From IMG/VR virus record IMGVR_UViG_3300044846_000556, positions 1 to 20,950 of that record: a stretch of DNA of 20,950 nucleotides. One strand, 5' to 3'. The DNA comes from a virus. A program made the translations under genes and the position numbers. The notes beneath the pieces were generated by a model. The model ran no database searches. It was given only the letters and a program-made list of their open reading frames with translations, and was not told the origin of the DNA. This document shows positions 1,891 through 3,486 of the stretch, one piece after another (the stretch's first letter is position 1; each line of letters starts with the position of its first letter).

Positions 1891-2060
1891 TCAGAACAAT
1901 TATTGTGAGGCTTTATGCGGTGCTTGGCGCATTGATCTTGCTATGCGGCATTGCAATGATGACCGACAGATTCGGGATGGGTTTGTTTATGCTGGGTCTG
2001 TTTGGTGTGCCTTGGCTCCTGCTGCTCTGGTGTTTTTGGCCATTTTTCAAGAAAATATGA
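1887..2060 (+). CDS. Small two-helix membrane protein
   Basis: A 57-residue product starting at GTG 1887, which overlaps the preceding TGA as GTGA and has GAGGG at 1875-1879 seven bases upstream. An in-frame upstream start at 1848 would overlap the previous gene by over 40 bases without a ribosome site. Two hydrophobic segments (about residues 5-24 and 31-54) are separated by a short loop containing Asp27 and Arg28, and the C-terminus is basic (FFKKI). It could be a holin, a superinfection-exclusion factor or another inner-membrane protein. No lysis gene is adjacent, so a holin call would be speculative. Confidence 0.6.
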   Translation: MIRTIIVRLYAVLGALILLCGIAMMTDRFGMGLFMLGLFGVPWLLLLWCFWPFFKKI

Positions 2061-2073
2061 AACTGGCTATAAT
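2045..2073 (+). promoter_or_regulatory. Candidate sigma70-type promoter (perfect -10, poor -35)
   Basis: A perfect TATAAT lies at 2068-2073. Seventeen bases upstream is TTTCAA (2045-2050), a poor -35 matching only three of six consensus bases. Predicted transcription would start near 2080, directly before the inverted-repeat region that begins at 2084. The match may be coincidental because the -10 lies within a short ORF. Confidence 0.35.
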
Positions 2074-2218
2074 TTCAACGTCAAGTGCTGCAACACAAGA
2101 CCAAATGAGGCCATTTTCTCATGCGTTACCCCACAAGGGAACTGATGTTGCAGCATTAGAACGCAGTAGAAAGTGGCTTTTTGCGTTCCAGTACCGATTG
2201 CTGATGGCGAAACAATGA
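2057..2218 (+). CDS. Short coupled ORF, unknown function
   Basis: A 53-residue ORF whose ATG overlaps the stop of the membrane-protein gene (ATGA at 2057-2060) and whose stop overlaps the next ATG (ATGA at 2215-2218). The chain of overlaps argues that it is translated, because random ORFs rarely fit both ends. The product begins MKLAIISTSSAATQDQ and ends in a basic, hydrophobic stretch (WLFAFQYRLLMAKQ). I recognise no family. The DNA also carries strong inverted repeats (2084-2188), so the alternative is that this stretch works as RNA or as a DNA recognition site and the ORF is incidental. Confidence 0.42.
   Translation: MKLAIISTSSAATQDQMRPFSHALPHKGTDVAALERSRKWLFAFQYRLLMAKQ
2084..2188 (+). 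other. Nested inverted repeats: candidate structured RNA, leader or packaging site
   Basis: TGCTGCAACA (2086-2095) is the exact reverse complement of TGTTGCAGCA (2146-2155), and the stem extends by a G-T and an A-T pair to 12 bp (2084-2095 with 2146-2157). Inside lie two further arms: ATGAG (2105-2109) with CTCAT (2118-2122), and GTT-A-CCC (2125-2131) with GGGAAC (2137-2142). Immediately 3' is another hairpin, GAACGC (2159-2164) with GCGTTC (2183-2188), with inner pairing AGAAAG/CTTTTT. As RNA this would form a three-way junction followed by a hairpin, beginning a few bases after the transcription start expected from the TATAAT at 2068. No U-tract follows, so it is not a simple terminator. 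A leader RNA, a small RNA, or a terminase recognition site upstream of terS are all possible. Confidence 0.45.
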
Positions 2219-2445
2219 ACCCTGTTACGGTTGCTATCGAGAAAAGTGATGCGCTTACTGACAAGCCAGCGCGAGAACTTGCAGGCGGTATCTCAGGAAC
2301 AGAGCAGAACGGTGATGTGACGATTAGCCCAACGATACGGGCGCTCTGGAAATGGAAGCCTGACCTTATGGGTGCAGTAGTCGGAAGATGGCTGAAGTCG
2401 GGGATATCACCCGCTTGGCTTGTCCAATGGAGAATCAATGGGTAA
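2215..2445 (+). CDS. Hypothetical protein, tryptophan-rich C-terminus
   Basis: A 76-residue product from ATG 2215, coupled to the preceding stop (ATGA) and overlapping the start of the small terminase gene by eight bases. The N-terminal half is polar and looks unstructured (Asp, Thr, Gly and Glu rich). The C-terminal half is helical, with four Trp in ALWKWKPDLMG, WLKSG and AWLVQW. A GTG at 2173 in frame would extend it by 14 residues but has no clear ribosome site and lies in the hairpin region. I recognise no family. The position directly before terS suggests a late or packaging-linked gene, by inference only. Confidence 0.55.
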   Translation: MNPVTVAIEKSDALTDKPARELAGGISGTEQNGDVTISPTIRALWKWKPDLMGAVVGRWLKSGISPAWLVQWRING

Positions 2446-2851
2446 ATCAAAATACACCGACAAAGAGCAAATCTGTACCAAAGTGCTGGAAGGCATGGAA
2501 AGCGGATTAAGCGCATTCAAATCTTGTGCCGCTGCGGGTGTAAATCAAAGCACTTTTAACTTGTGGCTCAATGAAGATGCCGAACTTGCTGCAAAATATG
2601 CGCGCGCGAGAGAAGACCTGATTGAGCGCATGGCTGAAGAAGTATTGCAACTGAGCGACCAAGAAGTCCCAGAGACCGGAGACGGAAAAAAGGACTGGCA
2701 AGCCATCCAGAAACACAAATTGCAGGTTGATACGCGCAAGTGGCTGCTGTCTAAGCTGGCCCCAAGGAAATACGGCGAAAAGCTGGAAGTTTCTGGAGAC
2801 CCGGCAAACCCGTTGGTTCAGCGCATCGAGCGCGTGGTGGTGAAGTCGTGA
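2438..2851 (+). CDS. terS: Terminase small subunit (Sf6 gp1-like)
   Basis: The 137-residue product resembles the phage Sf6 small terminase (about 140 residues). It has an N-terminal helix-turn-helix DNA-binding region (about 8-45, with SAFKSCAAAGVNQSTFNLWL), a central helical oligomerisation region (50-75), and the highly characteristic C-terminal element DTRKWLLSKLAPRKYGEK (98-115), followed by a basic tail that would contact the large subunit. It recognises the packaging site on concatemeric DNA and stimulates the large subunit. ATG 2438 has GGAG at 2429-2432 with five bases spacing and is preferred over the in-frame TTG 2420. Its stop overlaps the methyltransferase start as GTGA. Confidence 0.87.
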   Translation: MGKSKYTDKEQICTKVLEGMESGLSAFKSCAAAGVNQSTFNLWLNEDAELAAKYARAREDLIERMAEEVLQLSDQEVPETGDGKKDWQAIQKHKLQVDTRKWLLSKLAPRKYGEKLEVSGDPANPLVQRIERVVVKS

Positions 2852-3486
2852 AAGTTGAGATTGGGAACGCCACCCTTTACCTTGGCGATTGCATGGATAT
2901 ATTGCCAACGCTGGCTAAGGTGGATGCGGTGATTACTGACCCGCCTTATGGGATTGGTATTGCAAAGAACCCTGTCCGCCAGATGCACGAAAAGATGGAT
3001 TGGGACGCTGCTGTTCCTGATACATCGTTGATTGATGCCTGCATTGCTTGCGGAGATATTGCGCTGCTTTGGGGTGGAAATTACTTTGAGCTGCCGCCTT
3101 CTCAATGTTTCTTTGTATGGGACAAGATGCAGCCGCAGGAATTTTCTTTGGCTATGTGTGAGCAGGCTTGGACAAACAAAAAAGGGCCAGCCAAAATTTA
3201 TAAGCAGTCGGTGCTTTCTTACCGCAAAGAGCATCCAACACAAAAGCCCGTTGAACTCATGGCATGGTGCATTGAACAGCTTGGCAACCCGCAAACAATC
3301 CTAGACCCATTTATGGGCAGCGGCACAACCGGCGTCGCCGCCATCCAGCTGGGCCGCAGCTTTATCGGCATCGAGCGCGAGCCCAAATACTTTGACATTG
3401 CCTGCCAACGCATAGAGCAAGCCGTGGCGCAGGGCCAGCTATTTGCACCAGAGCGATCTAAGCAAGTTCAGGATGCTTTGATATGA
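2848..3486 (+). CDS. DNA methyltransferase, beta-class (N6-adenine or N4-cytosine)
   Basis: The 212-residue product has the catalytic motif IV DPPY at 31-34 (TDPPYGIG), the HPTQKP element at 129-134 (motif X region), the SAM-binding motif I DPFMGSGT at 153-160, and an acidic motif II at IGIERE (173-178). The IV-before-I order defines the beta class of exocyclic-amino DNA methyltransferases. It is compact, and the target-recognition region (about 40-128) is short. There is no restriction enzyme beside it, so it is an orphan that may protect phage DNA from host restriction or mark DNA for packaging or regulation. It starts with GTG overlapping the terS stop, and its own stop overlaps the terL ATG. 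It sits between the two terminase subunits, an unusual place. Confidence 0.87.
   Translation: MKVEIGNATLYLGDCMDILPTLAKVDAVITDPPYGIGIAKNPVRQMHEKMDWDAAVPDTSLIDACIACGDIALLWGGNYFELPPSQCFFVWDKMQPQEFSLAMCEQAWTNKKGPAKIYKQSVLSYRKEHPTQKPVELMAWCIEQLGNPQTILDPFMGSGTTGVAAIQLGRSFIGIEREPKYFDIACQRIEQAVAQGQLFAPERSKQVQDALI

Follow-up and report, generated by a model that had tools for sequence, protein, structure and literature searches.

A large, modular, non-coding RNA is encoded immediately upstream of the terminase small subunit gene (terS) in the genome of a lake phage, and it can be regarded as practically certain that this element, which extends from position 2080 to about 2430 on the plus strand (~350 nt), is a structured RNA conserved across phage contigs. 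Positions refer to the window, i.e. the whole analysed stretch of 20,950 nucleotides. The RNA is built of two modules: a 5' module, comprising a promoter, a pseudoknot of helices A and B, and a U run, and a 3' module of ~240 nt. The family holds at least five pseudoknots. Compensatory changes occur in most helices beyond the level of shuffled and slid controls, and they recur in held-out sequences. The original prediction placed a structured RNA right after a TATAAT box, where the packaging operon begins, and both features agree with the present results. Its length of roughly 105 bases, on the other hand, covered only the first third of the molecule.

Extent and distribution of the RNA

The conserved stretch runs from GTCAAG (2080) to CTTGGCTTGTCC (~2425), ending 13 nt upstream of the terS start, and the HMM match (2080-2430, plus strand) covers the full structured RNA. 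The flanking DNA on both sides is unrelated from clade to clade. Besides the window, the element is carried by ~127 further IMG/VR contigs, all from uncultured phages, in a manual count in which duplicates were merged and some members are truncated. These relatives were collected by a translated search with the overlapping open reading frame (ORF), followed by degenerate DNA patterns. A profile of the 3' domain scores above 50 bits in 164 fetched loci. Several matches from the last pattern scan (L158, L160-L164 and L170 among them) are not family members.

Two degenerate-pattern scans of GTDB bacterial genomes returned no member, and the match L121 was a chance 23-mer. A BLASTN search of INPHARED with eight RNA queries gave a single true relative, MW202484 (L205), in which the 5' module is joined to an L045-type 3' part. 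The INPHARED phages with TerL related to that of the window (PBR31, MW202867 and MW202573) lack the RNA.

The overlapping ORF (2057-2218) was named in the original prediction as a reason for caution. It remains open for 53 codons, and a coding reading could also draw on MW202484, where the region of the RNA is annotated as a hypothetical protein, UOF77725.1 (L205:6033-6392, corresponding to MW202484.1 33533-33892). Nevertheless, the frame is broken by indels in relatives, the upstream sequence is unrelated, the start codon region is not conserved, and the changes track base pairs. The ORF was rejected as a gene because its reading frame is not conserved, a short protein-coding gene is almost certainly not the explanation of this element, and UOF77725.1 is likely a spurious gene call of the same kind.

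Table 1. Positions of the promoter, RNA helices and first downstream gene in the window
Feature	Position	Strand	Basis or remarks
Sigma-70-type promoter: TTTTCA (2044-2049), 18-bp spacer, TATAAT (2068-2073)	2044..2073	+	Sequence; -10 position in relatives
Helix A, 5' strand (A5)	2085..2095	+	Pairs with 2146-2156; double-sided changes in 8/11 pairs
Helix A, 3' strand (A3)	2146..2156	+	Hypervariable sequence, complementary to A5
Helix B, 5' strand	upper 2110..2119, lower 2123-2127	+	Covariation
Helix B, 3' strand	upper 2168..2177, lower 2160-2164	+	Covariation; T run 2178-2182 after upper part
Helix C, GAACGCA/TGCGTTC	2159..2188	+	Clade-specific alternative to lower helix B
PK2: AACC/GGTT hairpin (2218-2232), loop TTAC (2225-2228) with GTGA (2246-2249)	2218..2249	+	Every pair double-changed
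H3: hairpin, stem TGCGC/GCGCG; loop includes PK3 5' strand	2250..2273	+	Covariation
PK3, 5' strand GACAAGCC	2260..2267	+	Covariation and RNAalifold
H12: GAGA/TCTC; loop contains H4 5' strand	2273..2294	+	Blind covariation scan
H4: CAGGC (2282-2286)/GCCTG (2358-2362)	2282..2362	+	Covariation
H5: CAGAGC (2300-2305)/GCTCTG (2343-2348); encloses H6	2300..2348	+	Covariation
PK4: GGTGAT (2311-2316) with ATCACC (2406-2411)	2311..2411	+	Double changes in 6/6 pairs
H6: GCCC/GGGC	2327-2342	+	Covariation
H11 (2363-2373) and H10 (2375-2394): hairpins	2363..2394	+	Covariation
H8: AAG (2395-2397)/CTT (2414-2416); loop contains PK4 3' strand	2395..2416	+	89.6% paired, 1 double-changed pair; weakest helix
PK3, 3' strand GGCTTGTC; RNA 3' end folds back onto H3 loop	2417..2424	+	Covariation, RNAalifold, held-out sequences
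terS (terminase small subunit), first gene downstream of the RNA	2438..2851	+	PHROG 1482, E 1.4e-30

Folding energy and comparison with Rfam

The segment 2080-2200 folds to -44.7 kcal/mol, compared with -26.7 ± 3.65 kcal/mol for shuffled sequences (z -4.93), and none of 200 shuffles reaches so low a value, as would be expected of the folded RNA originally proposed there. For 2080-2430, the z value is -2.86. The view that no known RNA family is represented also holds. Rfam 15 (4,227 families, including GOLLD, ROOL, RNase P, tmRNA and group I intron) contains no match to the RNA at the gathering score, and the window RNA gives none at E <= 10. Seven further loci gave nothing over the RNA at E <= 1. 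An overlap of L113 with mir-511 is a chance match (24.4 bits, cut-off 80), and likeness to RNase P, tmRNA, group I intron or SRP, seen by eye in short motifs, is unsupported by Rfam. As a separate observation, L204:2776-2842 matches the int-alpA RNA family near its threshold (34.9 bits, cut-off 35.8).

No phage RNA fitting the description was found in the open-access library searched, and none of the annotated features describes this RNA as such. Although it stands where phage late operons begin, the RNA is either unannotated or labelled as a hypothetical protein.

Structure of the 3' module

For the 3' module, 50 sequences were aligned by sequence alone, and an 11-helix structure with three pseudoknots (PK2, PK3 and PK4) in addition to that of helices A and B accounts for them, 96.0% of 2,736 cells being standard pairs. 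Double-sided changes are present in 44 of 55 pairs. Compensatory change, the mark of a structured RNA by which the original prediction was to be judged, is abundant among these relatives, with 380 double-change cells against 93.9 after shuffling, and not one of 500 shuffles reaches the observed value in any measure. When partners are slid, pairing amounts to only 34-39%, a comparison biased in favour of the structure, which was drawn from the same 50 sequences.

The held-out, RNAalifold and blind-scan tests are free of this bias. In 27 members that were found later and played no part in defining the structure, 91.8% of cells are paired, compared with 37-42% for slid partners. RNAalifold independently recovers several helices, including the long-range PK3. 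When 26,864 column pairs were ranked blindly by covariation, pairs of the structure took nine of the first 10 places and 15 of the first 20. The same scan revealed a helix that had not been drawn, H12, which is 97% paired and shows 38 double-change cells against 12 after shuffling. Together with H4, it forms the fifth pseudoknot.

Selection acts at the level of RNA, since G-U cells in the 3' module (222) far outnumber A-C cells (32), and certain G-U pairs are retained in ~90% of members. This excess, expected of RNA only, bears on the idea of a DNA-level element, for instance a cos or pac site containing inverted repeats. Such sites commonly lie near terS, and the proximity of the element to terS would fit. 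Nonetheless, it is found beyond terL in one clade and several kilobases upstream in another, which, with the G-U excess, makes a DNA-level site very improbable.

Unpaired stretches such as CAGGAACA and GGAAAT.GAA are near-invariant. The strict conservation of unpaired residues, the size and the number of pseudoknots recall large ribozymes, and a self-processing or catalytic RNA could trim a leader or an mRNA. Against this stand the flanks, which differ entirely between clades and hence offer no conserved cleavage site, and the lack of likeness to any ribozyme family in Rfam. A ribozyme is thus an unlikely explanation.

Promoter and 5' module

The TATAAT box stands exactly where it was first noted, and the weakness of the -35 element, TTTTCA at 18-bp spacing, is likewise borne out. 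In 55 of 70 loci, a TATAAT-like -10 box lies 6 nt upstream of the conserved GTC start, and a TTGACA -35 sequence occurs at 16-18 bp in several mutually unrelated upstream flanks. The fixed spacing and the recurrence of TTGACA in unrelated flanks indicate that the box at the RNA start is more than chance. The predicted transcription start is 2080 ± 1.

The perfect 10-bp inverted repeat of the original prediction is confirmed as TGCTGCAACA (2086-2095) and TGTTGCAGCA (2146-2155), extendable to 12 bp with one G-U pair. Its role is different from that first assigned. Rather than closing a three-way junction, it forms one arm, helix A, of an H-type pseudoknot in which helices A and B interlock, followed by the U run. 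The inner ATGAG/CTCAT stem of the proposed junction shows no double-sided change at all, and the junction was rejected on this ground. The hairpin GAACGC/GCGTTC (2159-2164/2183-2188), predicted to follow, is indeed present within helix C, but this helix is clade-specific, its 96.3% pairing comes with just three double-change cells and so with little support, and the region belongs to the H-type pseudoknot.

Across 35 sequences, 96.7% of cells in helices A and B are paired, with 61 double-sided changes compared with 12.1 after shuffling. The strands of helix A are hypervariable across loci yet still complementary. For example, L004 and L012, compared over more than 200 nt counted from the RNA start, differ solely in helix A, which reads GTGCTGCAACA/TGTTGCAGCAT in the former and GTGCTGGCACA/TGTGCCAGCAT in the latter. 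Such a compensatory change between near-identical RNAs possibly reflects selection for phage-specific pairing. Among held-out members, most 5' modules form the A/B pseudoknot despite quite different sequences, most scores lying at 44-82, whereas the 95th percentile of shuffles is 35. No clear helix pair was found in the 5' module of L159, L169, L178 and L189.

Helix B and the U run have the shape of an intrinsic terminator, a G-C-containing stem abutting a U run, and in the 5' module of 66 of 77 loci a U/T run directly follows a perfect stem, 8 bp long or longer. A standard terminator scan makes no call at helix B, whose loop of ~48 nt exceeds the reach of the scan.

Exchange of modules

The two modules are separable. 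L145 carries the 3' module alone (L145:11954-12211), with neither the promoter nor the A/B pseudoknot, and preceded by an antirepressor gene with Rha and KilAC domains. Conversely, L045, L048 and L205 have the same 5' module followed by a second, different 3' module, which may represent a second RNA type. In L205, this second-type module terminates in CATGCGAACTTGGGGCTTTTTTTG. In L144 (L144:8910-9335), the U run is separated from the 3' module by an insertion of ~150 nt that includes a long hairpin, GCGGCTATAAGGTGGCG/CGCCACCTTATAGCTGC.

Genomic context

In 50 non-redundant loci in which TerL was found, it is always encoded on the same strand as the RNA. In 45 of them it lies 0.3 to 7 kb downstream, whereas in one clade of five it is found 1.8 kb upstream; the clade with the RNA after terL comprises L106-L111 and L139. 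The terminases accompanying the RNA best match several PHROG families (2, 2472, 9, 38, 979 and 3717). In the marine-type contigs L148, L174 and L144, the RNA is placed directly 3' of a P22-type cro gene, and the genes on the far side of cro are divergent. Downstream of it, small, nin-type and HNH-like genes, terS, terL and the portal gene form a rightward operon, the genes of this clade other than Cro and TerL having been named by eye from sequence.

The gene that follows the RNA varies by clade, being terS, an HNH endonuclease gene, unknown genes or the major capsid protein gene, and its distance is variable too. This variation speaks against a cis-regulatory leader of terS translation, such as a riboswitch or an RNA thermometer. 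The fold of the window, which stops so shortly before the terS start codon, would suit such a leader, but it is improbable as an account of the family.

In the window, a DNA methyltransferase gene (2848-3486) is situated between terS and terL, and TerL begins 1,053 nt past the RNA, compared with 418 nt in close relatives such as L004, where terL directly follows terS. The methyltransferase gene is probably a recent insertion. In L101, a tRNA gene (L101:2867-2938, minus strand, 65.6 bits) precedes the RNA match by ~250-330 bases.

The record search found NinB, its positive control, in 20 of 50 cases. The RNA-bearing records searched yielded no antiterminator Q, but these Pfam models did not detect the annotated Q of PBR31 either, and the absence of Q was therefore dropped as support.

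Possible function

The favoured reading of function, which can be put forward only tentatively, is a cis-acting leader that controls termination or antitermination of the long rightward or late operon. The phage's own sigma-70-type promoter would start transcription at ~2080, and the 5' module would fold at once into a pseudoknotted hairpin followed by the U run, a potential intrinsic terminator. Once transcribed, the 3' module would act in cis on RNA polymerase, which would then pass terminators along the rightward operon (terS, terL and structural genes). The outcome would be a protein-independent switch of late transcription, like HK022 put or the Q-controlled late leader of lambda, with a different RNA.

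This role is suggested by the RNA's own promoter at a fixed distance, by the terminator-shaped helix B with its U run, and by the constant orientation and usual downstream position of TerL, despite several terminase families. It is also suggested by the marine clade, in which the RNA follows cro and precedes the whole rightward operon, as putR sits in the PR transcript. Moreover, a promoter and terminator scan of 1900-2600 found no terminator-like site, and its range includes the interval that separates the RNA from terS. Other observations count against a cis role. The 3' module far exceeds put in size and intricacy and has the look of a ribozyme or a protein-binding RNA, the RNA is located after terL in one clade, and each module occurs without its usual partner, the 3' module of L145 lacking the promoter and terminator module and the 5' module of L045, L048 and L205 being joined to another 3' part.

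With a 3' module so large and complex, trans-acting, ribozyme and translational readings stay under consideration. The main rival is a trans-acting structured RNA, which might be a component of the packaging motor, an inhibitor of host defence, or a scaffold for phage or host proteins. The promoter exactly at the 5' end, the very elaborate fold with its near-invariant unpaired stretches, the 3' end tucked into the fold through PK3, and the adjoining packaging genes in many phages are what such a molecule would present. Several unrelated terminase families alongside the RNA make a dedicated motor part unlikely, however, and neither the constant co-orientation with late genes nor the lack of a visible terminator at the 3' end within the window favours trans action, an explanation only a little less probable than the cis-acting leader.

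Whether it is a cis-acting polymerase switch or a trans-acting or catalytic RNA, the element probably represents a previously unknown class of large modular phage RNA machine with at least five pseudoknots and no dedicated protein, shared by phages from lakes, the sea and elsewhere whose terminases are unrelated. Few large RNAs have many pseudoknots, and ribozymes, scaffolds and regulators are among the classes known. If the RNA proves to be an antiterminator, its function would be a novel form of a known kind. It is a candidate explanation for how late genes are switched on in these phages, and its fold is suited to structural work.

Comparison with known RNAs

The put RNA of HK022 binds the zinc-binding domain of the RNA polymerase beta' subunit and suppresses termination. 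Put RNAs are located downstream of early promoters, putR lying ~270 nt into the PR transcript, and HK022 put acts alone on RNA polymerase, its effect reaching terminators 10 kb or more away (PMC9378689). Like put, the present RNA is encoded by a phage, follows a promoter and opens a long operon on the same strand. It is unlike put, which has ~70 nt and two stem-loops, in its ~350 nt and at least five pseudoknots.

In the late leader of lambda (6S RNA with tR'), a promoter, a short structured leader and a terminator hairpin precede the late genes under the control of Q. The order of a promoter and then a leader with a terminator-shaped hairpin ahead of late genes is shared, whereas lambda has no multi-pseudoknot domain. 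With phi29 pRNA, the element has in common that it is a phage-encoded structured RNA positionally linked to packaging genes. In contrast to pRNA, which is found in phi29-type phages with one packaging ATPase, it is accompanied by several terminase families.

GOLLD combines a conserved 3' part with a variable 5' part, and ROOL contains multiple pseudoknots (PMC12286853). Both resemble the present element as large phage RNAs of complex fold, but they usually lie near tRNA islands and differ in sequence and size, and no Rfam match to either was obtained. The element is a new RNA family, whose nearest counterparts, put, phi29 pRNA, GOLLD and ROOL, share its position or its style, but not its size, fold or sequence.
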